Below, one piece after another: positions 1,034-29,689 of a DNA stretch of 49,722 nucleotides. The position numbers were made by a program, and so were the translations under genes. The first letter of the stretch is position 1, and the number at the start of each line of letters is the position of its first letter. The stretch comes from Kiritimatiellia bacterium (GTDB lineage: Bacteria > Verrucomicrobiota > Kiritimatiellia > RFP12 > UBA1067). Below the pieces are notes generated by a model. That model had not been told where the DNA came from. It saw nothing but the letters and a program-made list of their open reading frames with translations, and did no database searches. Location: assembly GCA_028700415.1 (NCBI GenBank), contig JAQVSS010000006.1, positions 1 to 49,722 on the forward strand, given 5' to 3'.

Positions 1034-1147
1034 GTTCAACTGCCGCGCTTAGGCTGACTGTGCGCGCAGGAGAAACGAAGAAGAAGCCGCAGAAGAGCGC
1101 ATTGTCCTCGCTTGTTCATTTGAAAAAGGACAAAGGAGAAAGTGAAT

Positions 1148-6604: not shown

Positions 6605-8871
6605 TGATTCACACGCTTTGTCTGATAGTTGGCGCTCTGGCGGTCTTCTCCGCGTGTGCCGAGACGATGCCCCCCGAAGACCTTTTCGACGGCAAGACGC
6701 TTGTTGTCGTCGAGACGAAGACATTCAAGCTGACGATTAATCCCGACGCCACGGCCAAGTCGCTGATTGCCAAGGCCACTGGCGAGGAATGCCTCCTAAC
6801 TGATGAGAAGATCCCCGTCTTCGCGTCGACCCAGATCCGGCCGTTTAACAACGAGATCCGCCTTGTTCAGCAGGCCAAGCGCACGACCTATCCTGCCAAC
6901 CGCATCCGTCGCGAGGGGGATCTCCTCTACATGGGCTTCGAGACTGCGCCGTATCAGGTCACAGTGCGCGTGACCGAGACGCCCGAGGGTTATGCGACGT
7001 TCAAGATCGACCGTCTCATCTCCAACCATGAGGACGAGCACCAGTACTATCACTGGAATCTAGACGTCCCGCCGGTGGAGTCCTTCCGCCTGCTGCAGCT
7101 TCCGGTGAAGGAGCGCAAGAACTTCGGCGACTGGTTGAATGTGATGTGGGACGACAAGGCACTTGTCGGCGTTATCGGTGGCACACCGTACATGGACGTC
7201 GACAACGAGCGTCGCCACGGCTTTCGCAAGCTGACGGTCGAATCACTCAAGAACTACGGCGTCACCAACGGCATCGCTGTTCTGGCCGTTGCGACGAAGG
7301 AACAGGAGTTCCTCGACCAGATCGATGCCGTCGAGCGCGACCTCGGGCTTCCGCGCGGCGTGAAGAGCCGCCGCGACAGCCGCCTCAACGCGTCCCTCTT
7401 CTGGGTCGGCAGAGCCTTCCGCCCGGAGAATGTCGACGCCATCCTCAAGTACATGAAACAGGGCGGCTTCCGCATGCTGCTCATCTACCACCCCTGCCTG
7501 ATCAAGGCCAAGAGCTACAGGACGCTGCCGGACTACACCCTCGACAACGGCTGGACCGAGGAGAACCTGACGGCCGCGTTCGACCGCCTGCACAAGGAAG
7601 GCATTTCGATCGGCTTCCACACGCTACAGACCTTCATCGGACTTGACAGTTCGTATGTGACTCCCGAAGCCGACCACCGCCTCGCCCTCATCAAGCACTT
7701 TACGCTTTCGCAGCCGCTGCCGATTTCGGAGAAGCCCAGCGAGCTCTTCGTCGAGGAGAATCCCGTCTCCGCCCCGATGCACCCGAAGATCCGCGTGCTG
7801 AAGTTCGGCTCTGAGCTTTTCACCTACGAGGGCTATACTACGGAACGCCCCTACAAGTTCCTCGGCGTCAAACGCCGCCACCTCGGTACCCACGCGAAGG
7901 ATCATCCGCGTGGCGAGATCGGCGGCGTCCTGGGCATCAGCGAGTGCGCTGCCATCTCCACGTATATCGATCAGGATTCCTCCCTGCAGGACGAGATAGC
8001 CGAGAAGATCGCCAATATCTACAAGTGCGGCATCGACTTCTTCTACTTCGACGGTTCCGAAGACGCCAACGTGCCGTGTACGGTCAATATCTCGCTTTCT
8101 CAGTACCGCTGTGTGCAGGTCTGCACGGCGAAGACGGGCTGCGCGCCGCTCTTTACCGAGGGCTGCGCCAAGAGCCACTTCGGCTGGCACATCCAGTCGG
8201 GTGCGAACGCGTTCGATGTCTTCGGCTCGGAGATCTTCAAGGGCAAGATCATCGAGTATCCCTATGCCGCAGCAAAGCGCCTGGCGATGGACTTTACTCG
8301 TGTGGACTTCGGCTGGTGGGGCTTCTGGCTGCCGAACCTAGACGGCGAGCCCGCACTCAAAAAGGGCCTCTTCCGTGGCGGCCGCCGCACGGTCGGCACG
8401 CAGGCCGACATCTGGGAATACGGCACGTCCAAGGCGGCCGCGTTCGACTGTCCCTCGACAATGCAGTTCGACCTCAATACTCTTGCCCAGCACAAGCGGA
8501 CGGCCGACATCCTCGAGACGGTGCGCCGCTGGGAGGACGTTCGCCTGAAAAAGTGGCTCACGCCCGCCCAGAAGGAGATGCTCAAGGATCCTGCTAAGGA
8601 GTTCCATCTCTTCCTGAACGAGAAGGGAGAGTACGAACTCCTCGAGTGGAAGCAGTTGGACGTCGCCGGGGACAAGTGGTCGCGCGTGCGCGCCTTCGTC
8701 TTCGAGCGCAACGGCCAGCGCGTTGTCGCCTACTGGGATATCGCCGACAAGTCCGAACTCGTGCTGGCCAACGGCGTCGGCACGCTGAAGGCGGAGAACC
8801 GTGCCTACTGGACTACGCAGAAGAGCGAGGCGGACGTGCGTGCCGCCTTAGCGGGCGCGACGATCCGCTGA
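6604..8871 (+). CDS. Secreted protein of unknown function, probable TIM-barrel glycoside hydrolase, 755 aa
   Basis: The start is the ATG at 6604, which has GGGAGG (6591-6596) 7 nt upstream and overlaps the TGA of the oxidoreductase gene. An in-frame TTG further upstream is less likely. Residues 1-20 are a signal peptide with a possible S-A-C lipobox. Residues ~25-260 look like a beta-sandwich domain. A barrel-like region follows, with R-M-L-L-I-Y, G-I-S-I-G-F-H-T and C-G-I-D-F-F-Y-F-D-G-S-E-D; acidic residues at strand ends are typical of retaining glycosidases. A small beta domain closes the protein. I do not recognise a numbered GH family. Coupling to a sugar oxidoreductase suggests joint processing of one glycan. 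Confidence 0.7.
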   Translation: MIHTLCLIVGALAVFSACAETMPPEDLFDGKTLVVVETKTFKLTINPDATAKSLIAKATGEECLLTDEKIPVFASTQIRPFNNEIRLVQQAKRTTYPANRIRREGDLLYMGFETAPYQVTVRVTETPEGYATFKIDRLISNHEDEHQYYHWNLDVPPVESFRLLQLPVKERKNFGDWLNVMWDDKALVGVIGGTPYMDVDNERRHGFRKLTVESLKNYGVTNGIAVLAVATKEQEFLDQIDAVERDLGLPRGVKSRRDSRLNASLFWVGRAFRPENVDAILKYMKQGGFRMLLIYHPCLIKAKSYRTLPDYTLDNGWTEENLTAAFDRLHKEGISIGFHTLQTFIGLDSSYVTPEADHRLALIKHFTLSQPLPISEKPSELFVEENPVSAPMHPKIRVLKFGSELFTYEGYTTERPYKFLGVKRRHLGTHAKDHPRGEIGGVLGISECAAISTYIDQDSSLQDEIAEKIANIYKCGIDFFYFDGSEDANVPCTVNISLSQYRCVQVCTAKTGCAPLFTEGCAKSHFGWHIQSGANAFDVFGSEIFKGKIIEYPYAAAKRLAMDFTRVDFGWWGFWLPNLDGEPALKKGLFRGGRRTVGTQADIWEYGTSKAAAFDCPSTMQFDLNTLAQHKRTADILETVRRWEDVRLKKWLTPAQKEMLKDPAKEFHLFLNEKGEYELLEWKQLDVAGDKWSRVRAFVFERNGQRVVAYWDIADKSELVLANGVGTLKAENRAYWTTQKSEADVRAALAGATIR

Positions 8872-11180: not shown

Positions 11181-11193
11181 CGGGTTTTCGGGG

Positions 11194-11221
11194 TTGACTG
11201 TTTTCGCCCCCCCCGCATAAT
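11194..11221 (+). promoter_or_regulatory. Sigma-70-type promoter
   Basis: TTGACT (11194-11199) and CATAAT (11216-11221) are separated by 16 nt. Transcription would start near 11228, about 77 nt before the ATG at 11305. The 11002-11304 gap holds this promoter, the terminator just upstream, and nothing else recognised. Confidence 0.5.
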
Positions 11222-11304
11222 AGGTGTCAACCATAGGAGCCGATGCCTCGGTCACGTCTATGGAATGCTAGTGAATTTAAATCCATATTGGGGAAAAAGT
11301 ATTT

Positions 11305-11702
11305 ATGAGGAATCACGTTCGTTTCCTCGTGGCTGTGGCTACGTGCATGGTCTCTAGTCAGGTTTTCGGCATCCACGCCTACTGGATCGGCGGAACGAGC
11401 GGAAGCTGGAGTGAGAAGGCGAATTGGTCGGGAAATGCGGTTCCGAATACGGCGAACTACTTCGTCCATATCACGAATGAGGTTCCGGTCACGATCTCGG
11501 CCGATAGCGCCACGGTCGGGCGAATCGCGTTTTCCGGTGCGAATCACACGATTCCCAGCGGCACGATCTCCTTCGGCGCGGCGGAGTCTCCGGGGCGTTC
11601 GCTTCGACGGACCTCCCCGATTTCTCGTACTGGAACGTGAACTGCGGGGCGAAAGTCGTCCAACTCGTATGCTCCAACGGAATGATCATAATCTTCAAAT
11701 GA
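11305..11702 (+). pseudogene. Remnant of an autotransporter-type / G-W-S-x-x-x-N-W repeat surface protein, frameshifted N+C fusion
   Basis: The first frame (stop at 11638-11640) starts with a signal peptide ending near V-F-G. It is followed by Y-W-I-G-G-T-S-G-S-W-S and A-N-W-S-G-N-A-V-P, the pattern that opens large passenger-type surface proteins, then V-G-R-I-A-F-S-G-A-N. At about 11589 the protein-like signal moves to the +1 frame, where S-G-A-F-A-S-T-D-L-P-D-F-S-Y-W-N-V runs on to a TGA at 11700-11702. Full proteins of this kind are far longer, so the centre seems to be missing and the join is out of frame. The final TGA overlaps the next ATG (11699). Confidence 0.55.
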
Positions 11703-14170
11703 GTCCGTTCGCCGGTTGCGTCGGAGTCATGCTCGCCGCGGCGTTTTCTGCCGCGGCGACGCCTGTGCCGCCCGCGCCATCTCCTGAAGAGTGGACGTTC
11801 AAGGCGGAACTCGCCGAACCGGACGCATCTGCCGCCAGAAACCTGCGCGTGTGCGGACGGACTCCCTGGCTCAGACACCGGATTTCGCGCTGCTACTTCT
11901 CGCCGATCAAGCGCCCCCCGTTCAACCGGGACGAGCTGACGGATGACGTCGACTACTATCCAGACGCCTATCTCGAGCGTCTGGCGTGCGAAGGGGTGAA
12001 CGGACTCTGGCTCTCCATCGAACTCCGCGACCTTTCGGAGAAGCATTACGCGAAGCTGCGCCGTACGGTCGAGAAGTGCGGTCGCCATGGCATCCGCGTT
12101 TGGCCGTTCTGCATCGAGCCGCGGTTCTTCTCGAAGGACGATCCGCTCGTCAAGACGCATCCGGAGATGTTCTCGACGTGGCCGGATTTCCCGGATCACC
12201 GCCTCCTGTGTCCGTCAACCGCGGAGGGGCGCCGCCACATCGAGGAATCGGTCGCCGAGCTCTTCCGCAAAGTGCCGGGACTTCCCGGCATCCTCAACCT
12301 CTCGCACGGGGAGCGTCCGACGACCTGCCTGAGCGCCGTCGATCCCGTGACAGGACATGCCGCGACCTGTCCGCGCTGCCGTTCGCTCAGGCCCTGGGAG
12401 CTCCATGCCCGGACGGCAGAGGCGTTCGTGAAGGGGATGCGGAGCGTCAATCCCGATGCCGAATTCCTGAGCTGGTTCTACCAGCCGCACGTCGCGTCCG
12501 GACGCGCGCCGTGGGTTTTCGAGATTCCGCAACATTTGCCCGACGGCGTGACGATGCTCTACAACTTCGAGTCCGGCGCGGTGAAGAACCAGCTCGGGCG
12601 CTACCGTTCCGGAGGTGACTATTGGCTTTCCTATGTCGGTCCGTCCCCGGCCTTCGAGCGCGTGGCGGAGTCCGCCCGTCGTGCCGGCAGCCGCCTCGGC
12701 GCGAAAATCCAGGTCGCCTGTTCGCACGAATGCGCAACGGTCCCGTATGTTCCCGTTCCGGGACTTCTCTACCGCAAATACCGGGCGATGAGGGCGGCCG
12801 GCTGCACGAGCGTGATGCAGTGCTGGTACTTCGGGAACTATCCGGGTCTCATGAACCGCGCGGCGGGAGAGCTCGCGTTCTCCGATTTCACGGAGAGCGA
12901 GGACGAGTTCCTCCTGCGGCTTGCGAAACCGGGTTGGGACGTTGACGCCGCGGCGATGGCGAAGCTCTGGAAGGATTTTTCGGACGCCTACGCGGAGTAT
13001 CCTCTCTCGAACGACATGCAGTACTACGGCCCGTTCCACGCCGGCGTCGCCTGGCCGCTCGAACCGTTCGTCCGCATGAAGCCGCTCGCCCGCACATGGA
13101 AGCCGCATGATCCGCCGAGCGGGGATGCGATCGGCGAGTGTCTCGAGAACCACACGCTCGACGAGGCGTCGATTCTCGCTTCGCTGATGAAGACAATCGT
13201 CGTCGCGGCGGCTCCGGAAATCGCGCGGCTTGAGGCGAAATACGCCGGGAACGCCGCGCGGACGAAGGATCTCGGTGTCCTGAAGGCGTTTGCGCTTCTC
13301 CTCGAGTCGGCTTCAGACGTCTTCGACTTCTACCGGCACCGTGCGTGCGCAGTGGCCGCGAGCCGGTTGCGCGGTGACAGCCGGATGGCACTTTCCGAGC
13401 TTGCGGCGATGAAGGATTGCGTTCTGAACGAGAAACGCGTCACTGCCGAAATGCTTCCGCTCGCCCGCGCCGATTCGCGTCTCGGCTTTCATTCCGAAGC
13501 CGAGGTTCACCAGTTCTATCCCGCGAAACTCGTCTGGCGGCAGGGAGAACTCGACCGCGCTCTCTCCGAACTCGCGGAAATCGAGACGGTTCTGAAGCGC
13601 GGCGAGACCTATCCGCTTTCGGAACATGAACAAACCGCCGCGCGGTTTCCGTGTGGCGAATGGACCGACGTCCGAAGCGAGTTCAAGGCGGTCCGCGAAC
13701 TGAACCGCGAACTCGACGAGGTCCTGACCGGCGAATGGAAACCGTCAAACCTTCGGTACCGTTTCCGTCCGTCATTCGCCGCGAACGGTGACTTCGTGCT
13801 CGAAGGCGAAGTCCAGGTTGGAGATTCCGTCGAGGTCTTGACGTTTGATGCCTGCGCCGCGTCCTGGCCGCGTCACGTCACGCTCCGCCGCGACGGCACG
13901 GCCGACACGAGCGCCTTCAACGTCATCACGCCGAATCACGTGGTTCGCACATACTCTGTAGAAGAGAAGAACGACGGCTGGACGTTCCGACTTGTCCTCA
14001 ACGCCTGCGGTTGGGACGCGGAACCGGCGCGGCGTCCTGCCTGGATCTGCTTCCGTCGCGACGGCGTACCCGTCTGGCCCGAGGCGGTACCTTCGGAAGA
14101 AAGCCGTCTCAATATCGGCAATCTCGTTCCCGGAATGTACGGGAGGATAATATCTGAAAGGAAAGACTGA
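11699..14170 (+). CDS. Secreted GH20/DUF4838-like barrel protein of unknown specificity, 823 aa
   Basis: The start at 11699 overlaps the stop of the preceding remnant (ATGA) and gives a clear signal peptide ending A-A-A-T-P; the upstream part of the open frame is not gene-like. Residues ~60-450 look like a TIM barrel with W-L-S-I-E, R-V-W-P-F-C-I-E, L-N-L-S-H-G-E-R-P and a C-P-R-C pair at 224-227, as in DUF4838-type proteins. A long helical region follows, with A-D-S-R-L-G-F, and a C-terminal ~130-residue beta domain resembling a CBM9/DOMON sandwich. Its barrel and helical segment resemble the second half of the 1288-aa protein next door, so the two may share a fold and act on related bonds. 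The stop is 1 nt before the next ATG. Confidence 0.72.
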   Translation: MSPFAGCVGVMLAAAFSAAATPVPPAPSPEEWTFKAELAEPDASAARNLRVCGRTPWLRHRISRCYFSPIKRPPFNRDELTDDVDYYPDAYLERLACEGVNGLWLSIELRDLSEKHYAKLRRTVEKCGRHGIRVWPFCIEPRFFSKDDPLVKTHPEMFSTWPDFPDHRLLCPSTAEGRRHIEESVAELFRKVPGLPGILNLSHGERPTTCLSAVDPVTGHAATCPRCRSLRPWELHARTAEAFVKGMRSVNPDAEFLSWFYQPHVASGRAPWVFEIPQHLPDGVTMLYNFESGAVKNQLGRYRSGGDYWLSYVGPSPAFERVAESARRAGSRLGAKIQVACSHECATVPYVPVPGLLYRKYRAMRAAGCTSVMQCWYFGNYPGLMNRAAGELAFSDFTESEDEFLLRLAKPGWDVDAAAMAKLWKDFSDAYAEYPLSNDMQYYGPFHAGVAWPLEPFVRMKPLARTWKPHDPPSGDAIGECLENHTLDEASILASLMKTIVVAAAPEIARLEAKYAGNAARTKDLGVLKAFALLLESASDVFDFYRHRACAVAASRLRGDSRMALSELAAMKDCVLNEKRVTAEMLPLARADSRLGFHSEAEVHQFYPAKLVWRQGELDRALSELAEIETVLKRGETYPLSEHEQTAARFPCGEWTDVRSEFKAVRELNRELDEVLTGEWKPSNLRYRFRPSFAANGDFVLEGEVQVGDSVEVLTFDACAASWPRHVTLRRDGTADTSAFNVITPNHVVRTYSVEEKNDGWTFRLVLNACGWDAEPARRPAWICFRRDGVPVWPEAVPSEESRLNIGNLVPGMYGRIISERKD

Positions 14171-14171
14171 C

Positions 14172-17100
14172 ATGATGAAGTCCGTTGCAATGTTTGCGCT
14201 GGCGTGCACGTTCGCGCTTTCGGATGCGTGCGGGGCCTGGAAGATGGATACGGTTCTCGTCCGGGAGGACTTCGAGACGGAAAAAACGCGCGAGGGCTCG
14301 CCGGAAATCTTTTCGGGGCTTATCGCGCCTGGACTCCTCGTCGAGACGCGCCAGGCCGCCTTCCGCACGAAAGCGAAAGAAACAGTCGAGTCGACGACTG
14401 CGGACCTCCGTATTCCGGCGGACGACCAAAAGGCGTTCGCCCGTTCCTTCCGCATCTATTCGTTCGGACGCAGGGAGCACGTCGCGTCGAAACTGGTCAC
14501 CGAATTCCTTTTTGCAAAAAAAGAGACTTTTGATTTTTCCGTCGAGCACGACCCGAAGTCGGAGAATTTTGTCTGCGTCTGTTCGGGCAAGCGGCTCGAG
14601 GTTCCGTGCGCGTCACTGCCGGCGGAGTTCCTGTTCACGGCCAATCGGCGCGGTGAGGCGGAACTCGCCGTCAAGGGCCTCGGCGATTCGAGGCTTTATC
14701 ACCTCAAGTTCCCCGCGCCGCGATTTGAGTGGAGCGTCAGCCGTCCAGTCAAGGTGCTGACGACGTTCCGCTCCCAGGAGCCGGACAACGAGGCGGAGAT
14801 CGTTCTCGACGAGCTCCTGACGGGAACCGCCGTGCAGGCGGAGCGCAGCGCGTTTTCGGCGAAGATCACGCCGATGAAGACGTTCGATCCGGACAAGGCC
14901 GGATGGAAAAAGGTCTTCGAAGACGATTTCAACGGTACGGAGCTCGACATGACAAAATGGACGCTCCGCCATCCCAATCCCGAGGGGTTGCTCAAGATCG
15001 CCGACGGGGAGCTCAGGATCGGCTGCGATTTCACGCCCGGCTGCACGAACCGGGTCTCGAAGAACCTCCGCACGGCCGAGGTGATGACGCGCGAGAATTA
15101 CCGCTTCGGCTATTTCGAGGCACGTGTCAGGTTCACGCGGCAGAACGGATGGTGGGCGGCGTTCTGGCTGTATGGAACGAAGAACGCGAATCCGTTCACC
15201 GAGGGTTTCGAGATCGACATCTTCGAGGACTTCTACACGCGGCGCCGGGACAAGTCCGGGAAGCTCTTCAACATGATCGACCACAACCTCCACCTCTACT
15301 GCGGCTCGATGAAGGCGCTCAAGAGCTGGAACTACAACTCCGAGATTCCTGGCGGCCCCGACGAGTGGTATGACGTCGGCTGCAAGTGGACGCCGTTTGA
15401 GATATCCTGTTACATCAACGGCAAGCTCATCTCCTCTCGCGCGTGGCACAGTCCCTGGGAGTCCGTGACCTTCGACGCGTTCAACCATGGTTGCGGCACG
15501 GTGCCGCTCCATGCGATCCTCTCCGGCGAGATCATGAAGAGCCAGTGGAACTCCGACACGCAGGACGTGACCGGCTGCACGTTCCCGGACTGGTACCGTA
15601 TCGATCGCGTGCGCATCTACGAGTATCCCGAAACCGGCACCCGTGCGCCGCGCGTGAGCTGGAAGGAGCGTCCTGTCTCCGGCAGCGAGGGCGAGGTCGG
15701 AATCGGTGCTGATCTCATCTTCCGGGCGAACGCCAATCCGGCGTCCTCGAAGGGTCTGCCCCTGAAGGCGGTTTATCTTTTCGACTCGGGGTATCCGCTC
15801 CAGTGCTGCACGAACCCGCCCTACGAGTTCCGCGTGCCGTTCGACGAGGCCTATTACCGGACGACGCGCTACATGGAGCCGGGTCGTCAGAACCAGGTGC
15901 CGTCCTTCGACGTGCCGCATGCGTTTCAGCTCTTCGCCCAAGATTCCGCCGGCAACGTCGGCTTTTCAGAGCCGCTCGTCATCAAGCCCGTGCCGAAGAC
16001 CGACGTTGAACCGCCCTATGCGTTCCGGACGCGGCTTCTCGAGATCCATCAAAAAAACCGCCGCGATCCGACGCTCAAGCCGGAGGCGGACGAATTCGAG
16101 TTCAAGGATGGCTGCACCGTGCCGAACGAAGATTTCGCCGGCTATCTGAAGACCTCGATGGGCGTTAGGGCGACGGTCTCGAAGAAGGGGTCCGCGGGCG
16201 GCGTGGCTGTTCGGCTCTCCGAGTCGCTCGCCGAGCGAGAGTACGTGATCAACGTGGCGAAGAAGGGGGTGGCCATCCTCGCGCGCGACGGGCGCGCGGC
16301 GGCGCAGGCGCTCTATCACCTTGAAGATCTCATGAACCTGCGGCGCGCGCCGTTCCTCAAGGTCGGCAAGGAGAAGCGCCGGATGAAGTTCTCGCCGCGC
16401 ATGACGCACACGGGCTACGCGCTAGACGAGTTCCCCGACGAGCATCTCGCCACGATCGCCCACGCGGGTTTCGACGCGATCCTCTTCTACGTCATGGGTC
16501 CTGACCGGACGGAGGGCGGCAAGGACGATCTCGCCGATCTCATCGACCGTGCCGCGAAGTGGGGACTCGACGCGTATCTCTACAGCTCGCTTTCCGCGAA
16601 GAGGCACCCGGACGATCCCGAAAGCGACGCGGAGATGGCGCGCGTCTACGGCTCGGTCGTCAAGCGCTGCAAGAATGCGAAGGGCGTGCTGATCGTTCCC
16701 GAGTCATGCTACTTCGAGTCGCGCGATCCGCGCGTCCGTTCGAAGACGCGCCAGACCGACGAGAAGGGCAAGCAACTGCCGGACCCGAGCCGCTATCCCT
16801 GCAGCGACTATCCGCAGTGGCTCGCAAAAATCGAGAAGACCGTACGGGCGGAGATTCCGGACGCGGACGTCATCTTCTGGACGTACAATTTCTACTGGAC
16901 GCCGGAGAAGGAGCGATTCGCGTTCATCGACGGCGTCAGTCCGGCGACGACGCTCAACGTGAGCTTCGCCCTCGGCGACTGGCACGAGCATCCGACGCGA
17001 CTCGGTCACCACTTCCCGGTGAACGACTACTCGATCTGCGAGCCCGGCCCCTCGGCCCTCTTCCGCACCGAGGCGAAGCATGCCCACGAGCGCGGCCTCA

Positions 17101-18038
17101 AGCTCTTCACGACGTGCAATACCGGCGGACGCACCTGGGACTTCGGCTGCGCGCCGTACGAACCCGTGCCGCAGCAGTGGAAGCGGCGCTTCGACGCGCT
17201 CGTGAAGGCGCAGGACGATTTCGGTCTTTCGGGACTCATCGAGTCGCACCACTACGGGTTCGTGCCGAACTTCGTCGCCGAACTCGCAAAGGAATCGTTC
17301 ACGGAAGGCGGCCTTCCGTTCGAGGAGCACCTGATGAAAATCGCCGCGCGCGATTTCGGCAAGCGCCATGCGGACGAGACCGTCGCGATCTGGGCAGACC
17401 TGAGCGAGGCGATCAAGGACTACGTTCCGACTTCGCAGAACCAGTGGGGGCCGTTCCGTGTCGGCCCCGCGTATCCGTTCAACGTGTTCGGGCCGTTCCT
17501 CAAGTACAAGGATCCGGACGGCTGGCCGAACTTCAACAGCTGGATCTGTAACCCGAACTACGGCTGGAGCATCCCCTGGGGAGGCGGCACGCAGACGCGG
17601 GTAGCTCTCAATGAGAAGGCACACCGGATTGAAATCGAGCTCTTCAACTCCGCCGGGGAGCGGTTCGTCGCCGCCGGGAGGAAGCTCCGCGCGTTTGCGG
17701 ACGAGCTTGACGGCGAACGGCGCGCGCGTGCGCGTCGCGAGGCCGGCGTTGTCGAATACATCGGACGCTCGTTCTTTACTTGCGCGAACGTGAAGGCCGC
17801 CGCACTCGCGGAGCGTGCGGTGCTCGACGAGAAGTCGTCCGAGGCGGACAGGGCCGAGGCGAAGGCGGAGGTCCAACGGCTTGCCGAGAAGGAATACGCC
17901 AATACCGCTGCCGCGTTGCCGCTCGTCGAGGCCGACTCGCTTCTCGGCTGGGAGTGCAAAAACCTCTACATGGGCGGACGCGAGCGTCTCGTCTGGAAGC
18001 TCCTGCAGATGGAGAAGCTCTACAACATAGGAAAGTGA
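14172..18038 (+). CDS. Two-enzyme fusion: GH16 endo-glycanase plus GH20/alpha-glucuronidase-like module, 1288 aa
   Basis: After a signal peptide and a ~200-residue beta-rich N-terminal domain, residues ~245-480 form a GH16 domain. The catalytic signature E-I-D-I-F-E is at 347-352, with both catalytic Glu and the middle Asp present, and W-W-A-A-F-W-L precedes it. GH16 members cut beta-1,3/1,4-glucans or galactans endo-wise. Residues ~490-620 look like an Ig-like linker. From ~650 a domain like the N-domain of GH20/GH67 enzymes follows (A-R-D-G-R-A-A-A-Q-A-L-Y-H-L-E-D), then a TIM barrel at ~744-1130 and a helical tail with A-D-S-L-L-G-W-E. The second module resembles the upstream protein. AAGGAAAG precedes the ATG. 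The fusion suggests an endo-cut followed by exo-trimming of the same glycan. Confidence 0.83.
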   Translation: MMKSVAMFALACTFALSDACGAWKMDTVLVREDFETEKTREGSPEIFSGLIAPGLLVETRQAAFRTKAKETVESTTADLRIPADDQKAFARSFRIYSFGRREHVASKLVTEFLFAKKETFDFSVEHDPKSENFVCVCSGKRLEVPCASLPAEFLFTANRRGEAELAVKGLGDSRLYHLKFPAPRFEWSVSRPVKVLTTFRSQEPDNEAEIVLDELLTGTAVQAERSAFSAKITPMKTFDPDKAGWKKVFEDDFNGTELDMTKWTLRHPNPEGLLKIADGELRIGCDFTPGCTNRVSKNLRTAEVMTRENYRFGYFEARVRFTRQNGWWAAFWLYGTKNANPFTEGFEIDIFEDFYTRRRDKSGKLFNMIDHNLHLYCGSMKALKSWNYNSEIPGGPDEWYDVGCKWTPFEISCYINGKLISSRAWHSPWESVTFDAFNHGCGTVPLHAILSGEIMKSQWNSDTQDVTGCTFPDWYRIDRVRIYEYPETGTRAPRVSWKERPVSGSEGEVGIGADLIFRANANPASSKGLPLKAVYLFDSGYPLQCCTNPPYEFRVPFDEAYYRTTRYMEPGRQNQVPSFDVPHAFQLFAQDSAGNVGFSEPLVIKPVPKTDVEPPYAFRTRLLEIHQKNRRDPTLKPEADEFEFKDGCTVPNEDFAGYLKTSMGVRATVSKKGSAGGVAVRLSESLAEREYVINVAKKGVAILARDGRAAAQALYHLEDLMNLRRAPFLKVGKEKRRMKFSPRMTHTGYALDEFPDEHLATIAHAGFDAILFYVMGPDRTEGGKDDLADLIDRAAKWGLDAYLYSSLSAKRHPDDPESDAEMARVYGSVVKRCKNAKGVLIVPESCYFESRDPRVRSKTRQTDEKGKQLPDPSRYPCSDYPQWLAKIEKTVRAEIPDADVIFWTYNFYWTPEKERFAFIDGVSPATTLNVSFALGDWHEHPTRLGHHFPVNDYSICEPGPSALFRTEAKHAHERGLKLFTTCNTGGRTWDFGCAPYEPVPQQWKRRFDALVKAQDDFGLSGLIESHHYGFVPNFVAELAKESFTEGGLPFEEHLMKIAARDFGKRHADETVAIWADLSEAIKDYVPTSQNQWGPFRVGPAYPFNVFGPFLKYKDPDGWPNFNSWICNPNYGWSIPWGGGTQTRVALNEKAHRIEIELFNSAGERFVAAGRKLRAFADELDGERRARARREAGVVEYIGRSFFTCANVKAAALAERAVLDEKSSEADRAEAKAEVQRLAEKEYANTAAALPLVEADSLLGWECKNLYMGGRERLVWKLLQMEKLYNIGK

Positions 18039-18068: not shown

Positions 18069-18095
18069 CCATGTTACTTTCATTCTATTTAAAGA

Positions 18096-18129
18096 CGTTT
18101 CAACAAACCACTAGACAACTATTGAAACG
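18096..18129. repeat. 8-bp inverted repeat beside the tRNA-Pro fragment
   Basis: CGTTTCAA (18096-18103) and TTGAAACG (18122-18129) are perfect inverted repeats 18 nt apart, ending 3 nt before the tRNA-derived sequence. The position and size suit recombinase core-arm sites; a hairpin in a transcript is the alternative. Confidence 0.5.
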
Positions 18130-18132
18130 CGA

Positions 18133-18177
18133 TTGGGGTGCAAAAGGTCTCGGGTTCAACTCCCGACGCCCCGACCA
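18133..18177 (+). other. 3' half of tRNA-Pro(GGG) starting at the anticodon loop; probable att site
   Basis: The segment reads as a canonical tRNA 3' half. The anticodon loop TTGGGGT (18133-18139) has U33 and anticodon GGG at 18135-18137. It is followed by the 3' anticodon stem GCAAA, a 5-nt variable region AGGTC, a perfect 5-bp T-stem with loop TTCAACT (18150-18166), the acceptor strand CGCCCCG, discriminator A and encoded CCA (18175-18177). The acceptor strand and discriminator fit bacterial tRNA-Pro. Nothing upstream pairs with it: no TTTGC for the anticodon stem, no D-arm, no CGGGGCG. The tRNA identity therefore starts abruptly at the anticodon loop, the usual crossover region of tyrosine integrases. 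The intact gene should lie to the left, outside the window. Confidence 0.8.
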
Positions 18178-18183
18178 TTTTAG

Positions 18184-18226
18184 CCCCTGTTTTTATTGAA
18201 AAACATCAATAAAACCGGGGTTTTTG
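18184..18226 (+). terminator. Strong rho-independent terminator following the tRNA-Pro fragment
   Basis: A long imperfect stem (CCCC at 18184-18187 pairing with GGGG at 18217-18220, continued by complementary T/A-rich arms around TATTGA and TCAATA) is followed by TTTTTGTTT. It lies 7 nt after the CCA and fits the original terminator of the tRNA-Pro gene. Confidence 0.75.
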
Positions 18227-18340
18227 TTTATCTGGCCTGTTTTCCCTTTTGCCGGGAACACCCTGAAACAAGCGGAAATATAGGGGTCAAAAACCAAACA
18301 AACGCCAAAACCCGACAATATGCAAGTCCGCAATAAAACC

Positions 18341-18375: not shown

Positions 18376-21300
18376 ATGTCTTTTCGTGTGTTTTCTTTAC
18401 TGCGTGGCTCCGTGTTCGGGCGGGGCGTCAAATCCAAGACCGCAGTTGTCGAGGGGCCGTTACGCGCCGAATTGTTGAGCGTGGAACAGCTTAAACAGGT
18501 CGCACGCAAGCATGCGCACGAGCATAAGATCGTCTCCGGCTCCGGGTACAACCGCCTGCTGCCGCGCTTGGACGACAATGCGCGCGCCTTGCATGAGGCG
18601 CACAAGGTTCTGCTGGCCGCCGACGCCGCGGGCCGCCGTATGTCGCCGCCGGACGAGTGGCTGCTCGATAACTTTTACCTGATCGAACAGCAGATCGAGC
18701 TGGCCCGCATCCACCTGCCGCGGCGCTACAGCCACCGGCTGCCGCGGCTGACGGCCGGCCCGTACGCCGGCCTGCCGCGGGTCTACGGCATGGCTGCCGC
18801 GCTGATCGCGCACCTGGACGGTGCGCTGGACACCGAGGCCATCAATGCTTACGTGAGCGCGTACCAGACCGCCGAGACGCTTAAACTGAGCGAGCTGTGG
18901 GCGATTCCCATCTCCTTGCGCCTGGGTATAATCGAAAACCTGCGCCGTGTCGCCGTGCGCATCGCCAACCGCCGCCGCGAATTGGAAAACGGTATTGTTT
19001 GGGCCGAACGCGTTTTAACGGCAGCCGATACGGAACCCGCGCGCCTGATCAACCTGTTGGCCCGGTTCGCCGACACGCAGCCCAAGCTCAGCGCGCCCTT
19101 TCTTTCGGAGTTTGTCAGCCGCCTGCAGGGCCGCGGACCCGCAGTGGGCATTATCCTCAACTGGATCGACCAGGCACTTTCGGAAGAGGCCACCACCGTC
19201 ACGCAGCGGTTGCAGCGCGACAGCCATGAGCAAGCCGCCGAGCATCTTTCCGTCACCAACAGCATCGGCAGCCTCCGCTTTCTGGACAGCGTTGACTGGA
19301 AGACGTTTGTGGAGGAGCAGAGCCGTGTCGAGCAGATTCTGCGCCGCGACCCGGTCGACGCGTATGCCGCGCAGGACTTTGCCACGCGCGACCACTACCG
19401 GCATGTTGTGGAACGGCTGGCTAGCCGCTCGGGACGCAGCGAGACGGATGTCGCGCAGATGGCGCTGGAACAGGCCTCGGGCGCTTCGCCCAAGCCGGAC
19501 TGCACCCGCGCGCGGCATGTCGGGTCGTATCTCATCGGAGGCGACCGTTTCGCGTTTCGCCGTCTGGTGGGGTGTCCGTTATCGCTACGCTATCTGCTCG
19601 GGCTGTTGCTGCGGGGGTACAGGCTTTTTTTCTATCTGGGCGGGGTGCTGTTCATCACCGCGCTGGTCGCCGCGTTTCCGGCATGGAGCTGTGGCCTGTC
19701 GCCTTTCGGCTGGCGTTTCTGGCTGTTGGCCGTGGCAGCCTTCATCCCCGCCTCCACCTTGGCGCTATCGCTGGTCAATTTCATGGTGACGGCGCGTGTC
19801 GCGCCGCACCCGCTGCCGCGGCTTGATTTCTCCAAGGGGATCCCTGACGAGCACCGCACCCTGGTGGCGGTGCCGACTTTGCTGAGCGGCCAGCGCACGC
19901 TTAACGCCTTGCTGGAAACGCTGGAAATACGCTACCTCGGCAACCGCGACCCCAACCTCCGTTTTGCCCTTTTGACCGACTTTCCCGACGCCGACGCCGA
20001 AACCCTGCCGACCGACGGGGATCTGCTGCAACGGGCGCTGCAGGGGATCGCACTGCTGAACGAGCGTTATCCGCGCGCGGACGGCAGCACCGCATTCTAT
20101 CTCTTTCACCGCCCTCGGGTATGGAACCCGCATGAGCGCTGCTGGATGGGTTACGAACGCAAGCGCGGCAAACTGGGCCAGTTCAACGCGCGGCTGCGCG
20201 GCGAGTGCCGGGAGGCCTTCACGCTTCAAGTCGGCGATCTGACGGTACTGCCCTCCATCCGTTACGTGATCACCCTTGACAGCGACACCGATCTGCCGCG
20301 CGGCGCTGCCCAGGCCATGGCGGGCGCCATGGCACACCCCCTCAACCGCCCGCGTTTTGACCCGGACTGCGGGCGCGTTGTGGAGGGATATGCCATCTTG
20401 CAGCCGCGTGTCTCCATCCGCCTGGCCGCCGCCAACCGCAGCCTGTTCGCGCACGTTTCGTGCGGCGAAACCGGGCTGGACCCCTATTCGAGGGAAGTCT
20501 CCGATGTCTATCAGGACCTTTTCAGCGAAGGTTCGTTTGTCGGCAAAGGCATTTACGATGTGGACGCTTTCCGTAAGGCGCTGGACGGACGTTTCCCCGA
20601 CAACCTGATCCTCAGCCATGACCTGATCGAGAGCGCCTATGCGCGCTCCGGACTGCTCGGGTGCGTCGAGGTGTATGAAGACGCACCGTCCTCCTACCTG
20701 GGCGAAGTTTGCCGTCAGCACCGCTGGATGCGGGGCGATTGGCAGATCGCGCCGTGGTTACGCCGCCGCCCGCCGTCGCACGGCAATCATCCCGCCCGCC
20801 GCCAGCCGGTGTCCAACCTGTTGCAATGGAAGGTCGTCGACAATCTGCGCCGCTGTCTGGCCGCCCCGTCCATGCTGCTTCTGCTGCTTGTGGGGTGGAA
20901 TGCCGGCCCGGTGGCGCCGTGGTGCTGGACGCTCTTTATCCTGGCGGTCCTGGGGCTGGCCGATGTGGTGCGTTCCATCACGCTGCTGCTGCGCAAACCA
21001 CATGAACGCGGGATGCGCCTGCATCTGCGCACATGGGGCAGCGCGCTGCTGCGCCACTGCGCACAACCGCTGTTTGCGGTCAGTGTGCTGCCTTATGAGG
21101 CCTGGGTCGCGCTCGGCGCCTTCGCGCGTTCGGCCCTTCGCGCGCCGTTCACGCGCCGCGGCTTGCTGATCTGGCATCTGCCGCATTACCGGCGGCTCGC
21201 CACGCGAACGAAAGCGATCGGATTTTACAGCGCGATGTGGCCCGCGCCGGCGCTGGCGTTTGGGGCGGCGGCGCTGATGGTTGCCCGCCGCCCGGAAGCC

Positions 21301-24300
21301 TGGCCAGCGGTTTTGCCTGTGGCGGTTCTGTGGCTGGCCGCGCCGCTGACCGCATGGGCAGTCAGCCGGCCGCTGCGGCAACGAGCGCCGAAACTCACGC
21401 CCGCGCAATGGCGGCTACTGCATCAGCTCGCCTGCCGCACCTGGCGCTATTTCGACACGTTTGCCACGGAACGCGAGAACGGGCTGCCGCCGGACAATTT
21501 CCAGGAAACGCCGGAGCCGATGATCGCGTCGCGCACGTCGCCCACCAATATCGGCTTCGGGCTGGCCGCCTGCCTGACGGCCTGGGACTTCGGCTACATC
21601 TCTACGACGCGGCTGATCGAACGCCTTACGCGGACATTCGACACCCTCGAGAAACTGGAGCGCTACCGCGGCCACTTTTTCAACTGGTACGACACCCGTT
21701 CGCTCAAGCCACTGCCGCCGCGCTACGTCTCCAGCGTCGACAGCGGCAACCTGGCCGCCGCGTTGGTGGCGCTGCGCTCCGGGTTGCAGGGCTTGGACGC
21801 GCAACCCGCCTTGCCGGCGCAAATCTGGCGCGGCCTGCGCGACGCCCTCGAGGCGCTCGGTGCCGCGGCCCGGCGCGAGGGGTCCGCCGATTTCATGGCG
21901 CTGCTGAACGAGGCCGGGCTGATGCTGGTCGCTCCGCCCGAGGACGGCCAGGGGCGTCTCGAACGTCTGCAGAGTCTGCTGGCCGTGGCCGAGCGCATGA
22001 CCGGCGCGGCCGCAACGGAACGCTTTGCCGATGCCGAGGGCGGGTGCGCCTTTTTCGAGAGACTCTGCCGCGACCATGCCGACAGCACCGCCCTGTTGCT
22101 CAGCGATGCGCCGCCCGGCACGGCGTTGCGCCAGTTGGCGCGGGGTGCGGCCGATGAAACGGCGCACGGCGAAGCGCATGCGAATGCCGCCCGCCTTGTG
22201 AAAGCCTTCGGGCAACTGGCCGAGCGCTGCCGTCAACTGCAGATGGTCATGGACTTCCGCTTCCTGTACAACCGCGAGCGCGAACTGCTGAGCGTGGGCT
22301 TCAATGTCGACATGCGTCGCCTGGACCCCTCCTGCTACGATCTGCTGGCTTCCGAGGCGCGCGTCGCCAGCCTGCTGATGATCGCCGATGAGCAGGCTCC
22401 GACCGACCACTGGTTCGCGCTCGGGCGCCTGCTGGCCGGACACGGCGGCGCGACCGCGCTGGTGTCATGGAGCGGCTCCATGTTTGAATACCTCATGCCT
22501 GCGCTGTTGCTGGCTTCTTATCCGGACACGCTGCTGGACCGGACCTGCCGCTCCGTGATTCAGCGGCAGATCCGTTACGGGCGTCAGCGCAATGTGCCAT
22601 GGGGCGTCTCGGAGTCCTGCTATCACGCCACGGACGCGCAACACGTTTATCAGTACCGCGCCTTCGGTGTGCCGGGGCTCGGATTGAAACGCGGCCTGGC
22701 CGACGATCTGGTCATCGCCCCCTACGCCACCCTGTTGGCGTTGCCCTTTGCGCCGACTGCGGCGTGCGCGAACATCGAGCGCCTCCTGGCGATCGAAGGC
22801 GTGCTCGGGCCTTACGGGCTGATCGAGGCCATTGATTATACGCCATCCCGCACGCCGCGCGGCAAGCCGCATGCCTTGGTCCGCTGCTACATGTCGCATC
22901 ATCAGGGCATGGGGCTTCTGGCGCTCTCGCATCTGCTGCTGGACGCTCCCATGGTGCGGCGCTTCATGTCTGAACCCGCCGTGCGCGCCACGGAGGTGCT
23001 GCTCCAGGAGCGCATTCCGGAAGTTTCGCCCAAAATCCATCCTCACCGGTTCGAGGCCGCATCCGCCGGCGTGCCGGAGAGCGCCGATGCCGGCGACGCC
23101 GTGCGCCGCTTCAACAACCCCGCCATCCCGGTGCCCGAGGTGCATCTGCTTTCGAACGGCCGCTATCATGTCATGGTCAATCAGGCGGGCGGCGGTTCAA
23201 GCCGCTGGCACGGGCTATCCCTGACCCGCTGGCGCGAGGATATCACCTGCGACAACTGGGGGATCATCCTTTACCTGCGCGATGTGGAGACCAATGCGGT
23301 CTGGGCCAACACCTCCTTCCCGTTTCACAAAGCGGGCCGGCAGTACGAGGCGCTCTTCACCCAGGGGCGGGCCGAGTACCGGCGGCTGGACTTCGATATT
23401 GAAACCCGGACCGAAATCTGTGTTTCGCCCGAGGACGATGTCGAGGTGCGCCGTGTCACGCTGACCAATCGCGGGGCGCGCGGCCGGCGTCTCGAGTTGA
23501 CCAGTTTCGCCGAAATCGTGCTGGCCGCTCCTGAGGGCGATCTGGCGCATCGCGCGTTCAGCAATCTGTTTGTCCAGACCGAAATCCTGCCCTGCGGCGA
23601 AACCATCCTCTGCACACGCCTGAAACGTGAAGAGCATGAGCAGGAGGTCTGGTATTTCCAGAAGCTGTGCGTGATGACGCCCAGCGGAACCGCCAGTTGC
23701 GAGACCAACCGCGAAACCTTCATCGGTCGCGGGCGCACCCCCGCGAACGCGATCGCGCTTGAGGCGCCGGCCGGTTCGTTGGCGCCGCTTGCCAACACCG
23801 CCGGCGCGGTGCTGGATCCGATCGCTGCCGTGCGCCAACCGGTTGAGCTGGCCGACGAGCCGCTGCACGCGCACTTGATTTGCGGTGTCGCCGCCACCCG
23901 CGAAGCCGCGCTGGCGCTGGCGGAAAAGTACCGCGACCGGCATTTTGTGGAGCGTGCCTTCGACATGGCCTGGTCGCACAGCCAGATCATCCTGCGCCTG
24001 CTTAATGTCAGCGAGGCCGAGGCACAGGTTTTCGGACGCCTGGCCAGCTCCATGCTCTATGCCAATCCGCGCAACCGCGCGCCCTGGACGGTCGTGGCAC
24101 GCAACCGTACTGGCCAGCAGGCGCTCTGGCGCTTCGGCATCTCCGGCGATCGCCCCGTCATGCTGCTGCGCATCGCCGATTTGCGAAGCATGGACTTGGT
24201 CACCGACGCGTTGCGCGCGCACGCCTATTGGCGCCTGAAGGGGTTCGAGAGCGACCTGGTGATCCTGAACGAGGATTTTTCCGGTTATCGCGCCACACTC

Positions 24301-27027
24301 AACGACCGCATCGTGGCCGCCATCAACACCGGCCCCCGCCCGGATCTGATTGACCAGCCGGGCGGCATCTTCCTGCGGCGCATCGAGAATCTCTCCGAAG
24401 AGGACCAGATCCTCTTTCAGAGCGTGGCGCGCGTGGTCCTCACCGACGGCGCCGAAACCCTGCGTGAGCAGGCCGAACGCCGCTATGTGCCGCACCGCCC
24501 GCCCGCGCCGCTTAAACCCGAATCCGATGCGGTGGATCAGGCGCCCGAACCCCTGGCCGCGCGCGAGCGCATCCTGATCAGCGGCCCAGGCGGATTCACG
24601 CCGGACGGGCGCGAATACATCATCATGCTGGAACCCGGCACCGTCACGCCCGCGCCCTGGGTCAATGTGATCGCGGGACGGCGTATCGGCATGGTGGTCT
24701 CCGAAAGCGGCGGCGGCTACACCTGGATTGACAACGCCCATGAGTACCGCCTGACAACCTGGCACAATGATCCGGTCAGCGACCCCAACAGCGAGGCCTT
24801 CTATCTGCGCGACGAGGAAACCGGACAGTTCTGGTCGCTCACGCCGCGTCCCGCGCCTGGCCGCAACGGCTATGTCTGCCGCCACGGCTTCGGTTACACG
24901 GTTTTCGAACATGCGGAGGCCGGCCTCGCCAGCGAGCTGTGGCTCTATGCCGCGCCGGACGCGCCACTGCGATGCGCCACCGTCAAGATCACCAACACCG
25001 CCGACGTCCCGCGCCGGATCTCGCTGACCGCCTTTCACGAGCTGGTGCTGGGCGAGTGGCGCCATGACAACGTGATGCATATCCACACCGAGGCAGACAG
25101 CCAGAACGGCCTGCTGCTGGCGCGTAACCCGTACAGCCGCATCTTTCCGCAGCGTGTGGCGTTCGCCTCGTGCAGCGAGCCCGAGGTGGTCATGAGCGGC
25201 GACCGCACCGAGTTCATCGGGCGCAACGGCACGCTGGCCAGGCCCGCGGCCCTGTTCCGCCAGAGCCTTTCTGGCAGAACCGGCGCGCGCTACGATCCGG
25301 CGGCAGTGCTGCAAACCTTTTGCGACCTGGCGCCGGGCGAGACCCGCGAAGTCATTTTCACGCTCGGGGCCGCCGAAACCGTTCAAGAGGCCCGGCAACT
25401 GCAGCGCCAGTTCGGCGGTTCGGCCGGCGCGCATGCCGCGCTGGATGCGGTCTGGGAATATTGGAACCGTGTGCTGGGCGCGGTGCGGGTCGAGATCCCG
25501 GGCGTGCCGGCTGTGAATGCGCTGGTCAATGGCTGGCTTCTCTACCAGACCCTCTCCTGCCGTATCCGGGGGCGCAGCGGCTTTTATCAGTCAGGCGGCG
25601 CCTACGGTTTCCGCGACCAGTTGCAGGACGCCATGGCGCTGCTGCATGCCGCGCCGGATGTGTTGCGCCAACAGATACTGATGGGCGCTTCGCGGCAGTT
25701 CCGCGAGGGCGACGTGCAGCACTGGTGGCACCCGCCCGTCGGCGCCGGCGTGCGCACGCGCATCACGGACGACCGGCTCTGGCTGCCACAGGCCGTGGCC
25801 CGCTATGTGCTGGCCACCGGCGACACCGGCATCTTGGATGAAGAGGTGCCGTTCCTGGACGGGCGGTCGTTGGCGGAAGGCGAAGAGAGCCGGTACGACC
25901 AGCACAACCACGCCTCCGAGACCGCTTCGCTGTATGAGCACTGCGTCCGTGCCATCAGGATCTCGCTCCGTTATGGCGCGCACGGCCTCCCCCTGATCGG
26001 CGGCGGTGATTGGAACGACGGGCTGAACCGCGTGGGGCTGGGCGGCCGGGGCGAAAGCGTCTGGATGGCCTGGTTTTTGGGCGACACCCTCCGGCGCTTC
26101 GGAGCCGTGGCGCGGCTGCGCGGGGACCAGGCCTTCGACGAGTTTTGCCAAGAGGAGCGCAAAACCCTCGGCGTGCGTGTGGAGGAGTCGGCCTGGGATG
26201 GCGAGTGGTATCGCCGCGCCTACTTCGACGACGGTACCCCTCTGGGGTCGAAAAGCAATTCTGAGTGCCGCATCGACGCCATCAGCCAGAGCTGGGCTGT
26301 GCTCAGCGGCATGGGACGAGCGTCGCGCGCGTGCCGCGCCATGCAGGCGGTGCGCGAACACCTGGTGCGGTCTGACGACGGGTTGATCCTGCTCCTGACG
26401 CCGCCGTTTGCCCAAACGCCGCAGGATCCCGGCTACATCAAATGTTACCCGCCGGGCGTGCGCGAGAACGGCGGCCAATACACGCACGCGGCCGTTTGGA
26501 CCGTCATGGCCTTTGCCGAAATCGGCGACCTCGACACCGCGTGGGCGCTGTTCAACCGGCTCAACCCTGTCAACCACTGCCTTTCGCCCGAGGCGCTTAA
26601 ACGGTACAGGGTGGAACCCTACGTCATGGCCGCCGACATCTATGGCGCGCCGCCCTTCATCGGGCGCGGCGGCTGGAGCTGGTACACCGGCGCCGCCGGC
26701 TGGATGTATCGACTAGCCGTGGAAACCCTGCTGGGACTGGAGCGTTACCCGGATTATTTGCTGTTAAAGCCGCGCCTGCCCCAAGACGGGCCACCAAAAT
26801 TCCGCATCCTCTACCGGCATCAGGAACAGACCTATACCATCGAGGCCATCCGCGTCCCCGCGGAAGAGACGCCCCAAGTGACGGTTGACGGTGCGGTGCA
26901 GCCTGACGGCCGCATCCCTCTGCAATCAGACCGCCGCGACCACTGCGTCACCGTGACGTATTGTCCAACCTTGAACCCAACGCGGGCGGAGCCCGCAACC
27001 CAACAGGATCATGAGAAAATAAGCTGA
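18376..27027 (+). CDS. ndvB: Cyclic beta-glucan synthase, NdvB/Cgs type (GT84 + GH94-like), 2883 aa
   Basis: The order of domains matches cyclic beta-1,2-glucan synthases. An N-terminal cytosolic helical region (1-360) is followed by membrane segments near 405-470. The processive glycosyltransferase has L-D-S-D-T-D (D635, D637) and the acceptor motif Q-H-R-W-M-R-G-D-W. More membrane segments and a glycoamylase-like domain follow (T-S-P-T-N-I-G, then Y-M-S-H-H-Q-G-M-G). Two carbohydrate-binding GH94 N-domains come next. The C-terminal GH94 phosphorylase-like module has G-G-G-D-W-N-D-G-L-N (D2545, D2548), which sets chain length. The enzyme polymerises UDP-glucose on itself and cyclises the product in the inner membrane; cyclic glucans accumulate in the periplasm. 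Length agrees with known synthases (~2,800-2,900). No NdvA-type exporter lies beside it. The codon choice differs visibly from region 1, which fits its place outside the island. Confidence 0.95.
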   Translation: MSFRVFSLLRGSVFGRGVKSKTAVVEGPLRAELLSVEQLKQVARKHAHEHKIVSGSGYNRLLPRLDDNARALHEAHKVLLAADAAGRRMSPPDEWLLDNFYLIEQQIELARIHLPRRYSHRLPRLTAGPYAGLPRVYGMAAALIAHLDGALDTEAINAYVSAYQTAETLKLSELWAIPISLRLGIIENLRRVAVRIANRRRELENGIVWAERVLTAADTEPARLINLLARFADTQPKLSAPFLSEFVSRLQGRGPAVGIILNWIDQALSEEATTVTQRLQRDSHEQAAEHLSVTNSIGSLRFLDSVDWKTFVEEQSRVEQILRRDPVDAYAAQDFATRDHYRHVVERLASRSGRSETDVAQMALEQASGASPKPDCTRARHVGSYLIGGDRFAFRRLVGCPLSLRYLLGLLLRGYRLFFYLGGVLFITALVAAFPAWSCGLSPFGWRFWLLAVAAFIPASTLALSLVNFMVTARVAPHPLPRLDFSKGIPDEHRTLVAVPTLLSGQRTLNALLETLEIRYLGNRDPNLRFALLTDFPDADAETLPTDGDLLQRALQGIALLNERYPRADGSTAFYLFHRPRVWNPHERCWMGYERKRGKLGQFNARLRGECREAFTLQVGDLTVLPSIRYVITLDSDTDLPRGAAQAMAGAMAHPLNRPRFDPDCGRVVEGYAILQPRVSIRLAAANRSLFAHVSCGETGLDPYSREVSDVYQDLFSEGSFVGKGIYDVDAFRKALDGRFPDNLILSHDLIESAYARSGLLGCVEVYEDAPSSYLGEVCRQHRWMRGDWQIAPWLRRRPPSHGNHPARRQPVSNLLQWKVVDNLRRCLAAPSMLLLLLVGWNAGPVAPWCWTLFILAVLGLADVVRSITLLLRKPHERGMRLHLRTWGSALLRHCAQPLFAVSVLPYEAWVALGAFARSALRAPFTRRGLLIWHLPHYRRLATRTKAIGFYSAMWPAPALAFGAAALMVARRPEAWPAVLPVAVLWLAAPLTAWAVSRPLRQRAPKLTPAQWRLLHQLACRTWRYFDTFATERENGLPPDNFQETPEPMIASRTSPTNIGFGLAACLTAWDFGYISTTRLIERLTRTFDTLEKLERYRGHFFNWYDTRSLKPLPPRYVSSVDSGNLAAALVALRSGLQGLDAQPALPAQIWRGLRDALEALGAAARREGSADFMALLNEAGLMLVAPPEDGQGRLERLQSLLAVAERMTGAAATERFADAEGGCAFFERLCRDHADSTALLLSDAPPGTALRQLARGAADETAHGEAHANAARLVKAFGQLAERCRQLQMVMDFRFLYNRERELLSVGFNVDMRRLDPSCYDLLASEARVASLLMIADEQAPTDHWFALGRLLAGHGGATALVSWSGSMFEYLMPALLLASYPDTLLDRTCRSVIQRQIRYGRQRNVPWGVSESCYHATDAQHVYQYRAFGVPGLGLKRGLADDLVIAPYATLLALPFAPTAACANIERLLAIEGVLGPYGLIEAIDYTPSRTPRGKPHALVRCYMSHHQGMGLLALSHLLLDAPMVRRFMSEPAVRATEVLLQERIPEVSPKIHPHRFEAASAGVPESADAGDAVRRFNNPAIPVPEVHLLSNGRYHVMVNQAGGGSSRWHGLSLTRWREDITCDNWGIILYLRDVETNAVWANTSFPFHKAGRQYEALFTQGRAEYRRLDFDIETRTEICVSPEDDVEVRRVTLTNRGARGRRLELTSFAEIVLAAPEGDLAHRAFSNLFVQTEILPCGETILCTRLKREEHEQEVWYFQKLCVMTPSGTASCETNRETFIGRGRTPANAIALEAPAGSLAPLANTAGAVLDPIAAVRQPVELADEPLHAHLICGVAATREAALALAEKYRDRHFVERAFDMAWSHSQIILRLLNVSEAEAQVFGRLASSMLYANPRNRAPWTVVARNRTGQQALWRFGISGDRPVMLLRIADLRSMDLVTDALRAHAYWRLKGFESDLVILNEDFSGYRATLNDRIVAAINTGPRPDLIDQPGGIFLRRIENLSEEDQILFQSVARVVLTDGAETLREQAERRYVPHRPPAPLKPESDAVDQAPEPLAARERILISGPGGFTPDGREYIIMLEPGTVTPAPWVNVIAGRRIGMVVSESGGGYTWIDNAHEYRLTTWHNDPVSDPNSEAFYLRDEETGQFWSLTPRPAPGRNGYVCRHGFGYTVFEHAEAGLASELWLYAAPDAPLRCATVKITNTADVPRRISLTAFHELVLGEWRHDNVMHIHTEADSQNGLLLARNPYSRIFPQRVAFASCSEPEVVMSGDRTEFIGRNGTLARPAALFRQSLSGRTGARYDPAAVLQTFCDLAPGETREVIFTLGAAETVQEARQLQRQFGGSAGAHAALDAVWEYWNRVLGAVRVEIPGVPAVNALVNGWLLYQTLSCRIRGRSGFYQSGGAYGFRDQLQDAMALLHAAPDVLRQQILMGASRQFREGDVQHWWHPPVGAGVRTRITDDRLWLPQAVARYVLATGDTGILDEEVPFLDGRSLAEGEESRYDQHNHASETASLYEHCVRAIRISLRYGAHGLPLIGGGDWNDGLNRVGLGGRGESVWMAWFLGDTLRRFGAVARLRGDQAFDEFCQEERKTLGVRVEESAWDGEWYRRAYFDDGTPLGSKSNSECRIDAISQSWAVLSGMGRASRACRAMQAVREHLVRSDDGLILLLTPPFAQTPQDPGYIKCYPPGVRENGGQYTHAAVWTVMAFAEIGDLDTAWALFNRLNPVNHCLSPEALKRYRVEPYVMAADIYGAPPFIGRGGWSWYTGAAGWMYRLAVETLLGLERYPDYLLLKPRLPQDGPPKFRILYRHQEQTYTIEAIRVPAEETPQVTVDGAVQPDGRIPLQSDRRDHCVTVTYCPTLNPTRAEPATQQDHEKIS

Positions 27028-29687: not shown

Positions 29688-29689
29688 GG

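Follow-up and report, generated by a model that had tools for sequence, protein, structure and literature searches.

A tRNA-Pro(GGG) 3' half beside a glycan-degradation gene cluster as the likely end of a genomic island in a Kiritimatiellia draft genome

The stretch of DNA analysed here, referred to as the window, is 49,722 nucleotides long and represents the entire contig C70 of a Kiritimatiellia draft genome (4.9 Mb, 548 contigs, 87% complete). Its left part holds genes related to glycan degradation. These are followed by the 3' half of a tRNA gene with a terminator, and then by a very large cyclic glucan synthase-type gene. The features are as follows, with attachment-site and cargo assignments being putative.

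2..973, + strand: C-terminal portion, truncated at the contig end, of another protein from the DUF4838 subfamily of the 1142-4126 gene (identified by paralogue comparison)
1142..4126, + strand: DUF4838 and CBM9-like protein; its nearest paralogue in the genome (49.7%) lies behind the presumably restored tRNA on contig C125
5270..6604, + strand: presumed cargo; GFO/IDH/MocA oxidoreductase with the glycoside 3-dehydrogenases as its nearest family
6589..8871, + strand: 760-aa reading frame without a Pfam or NCBIfam match; presumed cargo
11411..14170, + strand: 919-aa reading frame, presumed cargo; no Pfam match, weak similarity to the C-terminal family of the 14172-18038 protein
14172..18038, + strand: 1288-aa protein with a GH16-like/3-keto-disaccharide-hydrolase-like N-terminal part and a second family of ~675 aa
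18073..18132, + strand: putative element-side arm of attR, AT-rich, from the hairpin behind the GH16 gene to the crossover
18133..18177, + strand: tRNA-Pro(GGG) 3' half, assigned by sequence pattern and by comparison with an intact gene as a displaced, host-derived half (attR)
18178..18235, + strand: native tRNA terminator behind the half, with hairpin arms at 18185-18199 and 18206-18220 and a match to the downstream region of relative G060
18376..27027, + strand: 2883-aa GH94/glycoamylase cyclic glucan synthase-type protein, on the backbone side according to the model

The left part is rich in carbohydrate-related families. A Pfam scan of the main reading frames of positions 1-18 kb returned no SusC/SusD-type domain, so we speak of a glycan-degradation gene cluster and not of a polysaccharide utilisation locus (PUL) of the Bacteroidota type. 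The initial annotation had pictured a mobile polysaccharide-utilisation unit; that name does not apply in the Bacteroidota sense, as no susC or susD was seen among the scanned reading frames, and no sign of present mobility was found. The frame at 14172-18038 fuses two families (residues ~1-605 and ~613-1286) that are encoded separately in relatives. To the right of the half, genes for a GH123-like and a BNR-repeat protein (27387-31774) separate the cyclic glucan synthase from the housekeeping genes, which places further glycan genes on the presumed backbone side. The housekeeping genes continue rightward with an RsmI-type methylase, an HflX-type GTPase, a SerA-type dehydrogenase, PrmA, and RuvB. 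In relative G020, the orthologue of the cyclic glucan synthase is preceded by tRNA-Asn.

The 45 nt at 18133-18177 (TTGGGGTGCAAAAGGTCTCGGGTTCAACTCCCGACGCCCCGACCA) are an exact tRNA-Pro(GGG) 3' half, reaching from the anticodon loop to the CCA end. In order, they comprise the anticodon loop TTGGGGT, the 3' strand of the anticodon stem (GCAAA), the variable loop (AGGTC), a perfect T-stem (TCGGG/CCCGA), the 3' strand of the acceptor stem (CGCCCCG), and A-CCA. The first base of the half is the first base of the anticodon loop, a known crossover subsite. The pattern occurs once in the window, and it was absent from 100 shuffled versions of the window even with up to 3 mismatches allowed. ARAGORN predicts no tRNA in the window, and a search of both its strands for a tRNA-Pro 5' half was negative. 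The 5 nt ahead of the loop (CGCGA) pair with GCAAA at only 1 of 5 positions, and the acceptor 3' strand has no pairing partner. Behind the half, the terminator hairpin is followed by T-runs and is of the type found behind other tRNAs of this genome. The pattern, ARAGORN, and strand searches thus bear out the initial description of a 3' half that runs from the anticodon loop to CCA, carries a terminator, and lacks its 5' half. Two other origins of a lone half were considered and rejected: a group I intron, given that no Rfam intron family lies near the half, and a split or permuted tRNA, given that no 5' half is present in the window. The only notable Rfam match nearby is a sub-threshold tmRNA hit on the T-arm.

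A candidate partner is found elsewhere in the genome. The sole intact tRNA-Pro(GGG) in the rest of the draft lies on contig C125 (5581-5657) and has the same anticodon. Its identity with the window half begins at the first position of the anticodon loop and continues for 17 nt; the loop itself (18133-18139) would be the crossover segment, and the shared core runs through 18149. Past this core the T-stem of the C125 gene is AGGAG/CTCCT versus TCGGG/CCCGA in the window, a difference of 3 pairs that is fully compensated, and the two sequences agree again in the T loop, the acceptor strand, and CCATTTTA. The initial annotation had expected an intact gene with the same last 45 nt. The gene exists, but its T-stem differs, and C125 in part presents the situation named there as counterevidence, in which the 3' half of an intact gene fails to match. 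Comparison with relatives turns this mismatch from counterevidence into evidence for integration.

A relative with an intact gene is G003, a genome of the same family and a different genus. When the 5' half of the C125 gene is joined to the 3' half in the window, the product is identical to the intact gene of G003 at 82/82 nt; the C125 gene unjoined reaches 93%. TCGGG is the common T-stem among the tRNA-Pro(GGG) genes read in the order, and the only genes seen with AGGAG were those of C125 and G011. The flanks follow the same pattern as the gene body. For the upstream regions of G003 and G011, that of C125 is a better match than those of the other tRNAs of the genome compared (54 vs 33 and 47 vs 29), and the downstream region of the intact gene in G060 finds its best match in the window (76 vs 58). 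For the downstream region of G003, the window ranks third, behind two tRNAs with the same terminator type. In alignments of ~200 nt, the joined flanks score 128 against G003, compared with 99 for C125, 63 for the window, and 34 for the reciprocal junction. This support for an empty site reaches ~100 nt beyond the gene in both directions; further out, no gene synteny with relatives was detected on either side. Around the tRNA-Pro genes of relatives, none of the genes left on C125 or right in the window were present, save for RsmI in G006, on the opposite side. From the matches of body and flanks to G003 and G060 we infer that the ancestral locus is the left side of C125 joined to the right side of the window. 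The empty site anticipated by the initial annotation has thereby been located in a relative. In G011, a tRNA-Pro(GGG) at C62:5036-5112 (L082) is identical to that of C125 at 77/77 nt and has a different downstream region. This gene may be the trace of another integration; a search for a displaced half in G011 was negative.

We consider it likely that a tyrosine recombinase placed a genomic island in the anticodon loop of tRNA-Pro(GGG), and that the half is the attR of this island. Since the 5' half on C125 and the 3' half in the window together make up the gene of a relative, the window half would be the displaced 3' end of the host gene (attR), and the C125 gene would be attL. The recombinase would have crossed over in the anticodon loop of the ancestral gene. 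Recombination of attP with attB would have brought in an element-borne 3' half with a different T-stem, restoring the gene on C125, and would have moved the host 3' half, together with its terminator, to 18133 at the opposite end of the insert. The C125 gene and the C70 half fit the configuration and orientation of an island if C125 lies upstream of C70, and the orientation at the half is correct, with the element to its left. The insert would begin at C125:5613, continue to the right across an unassembled gap, and end at window position 18132. Its recovered part comes to 6,409 + 18,132 = 24,541 nt, a lower bound, as the middle is unassembled. A search for an overlap between the ends of C125 and C70 that would join the contigs found none. 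Contig C195 was tried as the island middle and rejected, as its end genes (an M19 peptidase and a DUF5009-like gene) do not continue those of C125 or C70.

The insert would carry the DUF4838, GH16, and MocA genes. The glycan genes are placed inside the element because the same DUF4838 subfamily also lies beyond the presumably restored tRNA on C125. There, the tRNA is followed on the right by a gene for a 986-aa protein and then by a DUF4838 gene (9431-12019) cut by the contig end. Of the 33 DUF4838 matches in the genome, the window gene at 1142-4126 is the closest to this C125 gene (49.7%). This subfamily was found only on C70, C125, and C195. It stands on the island side of both ends, with all copies in one orientation. 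Given its copy number and the size of the genome, we estimate a chance of ~1% for its occurrence in the 6.4 kb behind the tRNA. On these gene positions, the glycan cluster to the left of the half is probably element DNA. For the stronger statement of the initial annotation, that the whole GH/DUF4838 cluster is inserted, the evidence points both ways: the DUF4838 subfamily at both ends speaks for it, and the scatter of DUF4838 genes (33 matches on about 27 contigs), the similar composition, and the location of the ends on two contigs speak against it. Contig C195 carries a similar glycan cluster with no tRNA mark. Composition to the left and right of the half shows no contrast at the junction; composition-based recognition of an island was accordingly set aside.

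The initial annotation had also expected an integrase beside the intact tRNA-Pro(GGG). No integrase was identified on C125 or in window 1-18 kb, which together cover 24.5 kb of a putative island whose middle is missing, and other mobility genes were likewise not identified at either end. On C125, positions 6143-6395 (L035) hold a short reading frame enclosed by 36-nt inverted repeats, which may resemble the start of a four-helix-bundle protein. The draft genome has 6 PF00589 genes, all on contigs other than C70 and C125. The one on C486 is Xer-like and adjoins a topoisomerase gene. On C25 (L250), a tyrosine integrase (626-1816, - strand, within 626-1938) starts ~100 nt from a 3' fragment of a tRNA-Gly T-arm. 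Further along that contig to the right is a DUF4838 gene that belongs to a different subfamily. A closely related integrase on C428 (L251; 7909-9084) has a T-arm tRNA fragment just upstream, and the fragments on C25 and C428 share an upstream stretch, TTCAAAAAA.CCCAATAAAATCGC.

Across the order, tRNA halves of the same kind accompany a family of tyrosine integrases. Other tRNA-Pro halves that begin in or close to the anticodon loop occur in two relatives: a CGG half in G046:C22 and a TGG half in G025:C325. The latter adjoins a tyrosine integrase (PF00589, 1.7e-18) and an AAA_25/DnaB-like gene and retains a native-type terminator. The former (L244, ~1501-1547) has no adjacent integrase, and the bases preceding it end in ACGCG, as in the window. 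Searched against 162 genomes of the order, the G025 integrase has matches in 88; members of the family are ~540-600 aa in size (for example, L249:3875-5524). We fetched 30 loci of this family (L259-L288). In 23 of them, the integrase match is 143-342 nt away from a tRNA 3' half that begins at or near the anticodon loop and has no acceptor partner. The tRNAs used are Pro (TGG, CGG, and GGG), fMet, Val, Ala, Asn, and Gly, and short motifs recur upstream of several halves. In G056 (C265), the integrase starts ~200 nt behind an intact tRNA-Pro(GGG). No tRNA halves were found in viral contigs. Gene neighbourhoods of this sort support the proposed mechanism of insertion. The window itself differs: where the family of G025:C325 has an integrase at 140-350 nt from the displaced half, the GH16-like gene ends 95 nt away, and the arm motif of the family was absent from 18073-18132. 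With neither integrase nor arm motif, the recombinase of the window would be another one, or would lie in the gap or have been lost; the island may now be fixed. The central proposal of the initial annotation, that the half stems from integration into the anticodon loop of tRNA-Pro(GGG), is nonetheless supported by the C125 gene, the empty site, the orientation, and the integrases of the order.

Other histories could have produced parts of this picture. The integration into tRNA-Pro may be real but concern an element that has since decayed or been partly excised, with the glycan genes being host DNA moved in by later rearrangement, deletion, or att-site recombination. Such a history would account for the lack of mobility genes near either end, in a setting where the integrase of relatives adjoins the half. 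It also agrees with the endemic occurrence of DUF4838 and GH genes, including the C195 cluster without a tRNA mark, and with the uniform composition. We regard it as unlikely, as a rare DUF4838 subfamily occupies the island side of both ends in matching orientation. The restored gene could also be no restoration at all. In that case, the genome would have had two tRNA-Pro(GGG) genes, with that on C125 inherited vertically, as in G011, and the half derived from the other, whose restored tRNA would fall in the unassembled 13%. The 77/77 identity and similar upstream regions of the C125 and G011 genes, together with the 87% completeness, leave room for this scenario. It is rendered quite improbable by the upstream region of C125, which is the best match of the single G003 gene whose body equals the joined halves, and by the pattern search, which gave one tRNA-Pro(GGG) per relative searched. 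Moreover, 3 T-stem pairs have changed at once in an otherwise identical sequence, which is easier to explain by replacement than by drift.

A join of unrelated sequence to a tRNA half by misassembly would be conceivable in a draft of 548 contigs, and we judge it very improbable here. The break falls exactly at the anticodon loop, similar breaks occur in 23 other loci of the order, and the base-word profiles of C125 and C70 are within the range of the genome. In addition, the two contigs share only 17 nt and the acceptor end, too little to drive a false join. Integration of an island at the anticodon loop remains our preferred reading.

Several implications follow from this reading. In a fragmented draft, a displaced half matched to a partner contig and an empty site can give an exact island end. 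The end described here would escape composition methods, given the similar composition to its left and right. Should the glycan cluster truly be cargo, the carbohydrate-degrading capacity of these gut bacteria can move in one block. The integrases found beside anticodon-loop halves across the order amount to a ready list of candidate islands. More tentatively, and possible rather than probable in our estimate, glycan clusters (DUF4838, GH16, glycoside 3-dehydrogenase-like) may travel as anticodon-loop tRNA islands in this largely uncultured gut order of the Verrucomicrobiota type, with tRNA fragments marking a mobile pool of carbohydrate genes.

Islands that target tRNA genes at the anticodon and leave a 3' fragment form a large known class (Islander, PMC4383910). 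Within the library searched, the literature on genomic islands and integrases in Kiritimatiellia yielded no report of such an island. Like polysaccharide utilisation loci, the cluster groups carbohydrate-active genes; unlike them, the reading frames scanned in window 1-18 kb are without SusC/SusD-type domains. With the integrase elements of the order (G025:C325, G056:C265, and L259-L288), the locus shares a tRNA 3' half from or near the anticodon loop and differs in having a GH16 gene, and no arm motif, at the position of their integrase. Islands whose parts are spread over separate contigs of a fragmented genome have been described (TIGER2 "Cross" mode, PMC9580842). The present case resembles them in that its ends lie on separate contigs, its middle is missing, and it was found via a reference empty site; it differs in that the reference, G003, belongs to a different genus and covers ~100 nt per side. 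A restored tRNA and a displaced 3' fragment in the right orientation, with a break in the anticodon loop, are among the commonest configurations in Islander (PMC4383910). Here, no integrase was recovered, the ends lie on two contigs, and the T-stem of the restored gene differs, in contrast to those islands; as in them, the restored tRNA marks one end (C125), the 3' fragment marks the other (the window), and the break is in the anticodon loop. The event is a further case of this known class of tRNA islands, in a poorly studied group of gut bacteria.
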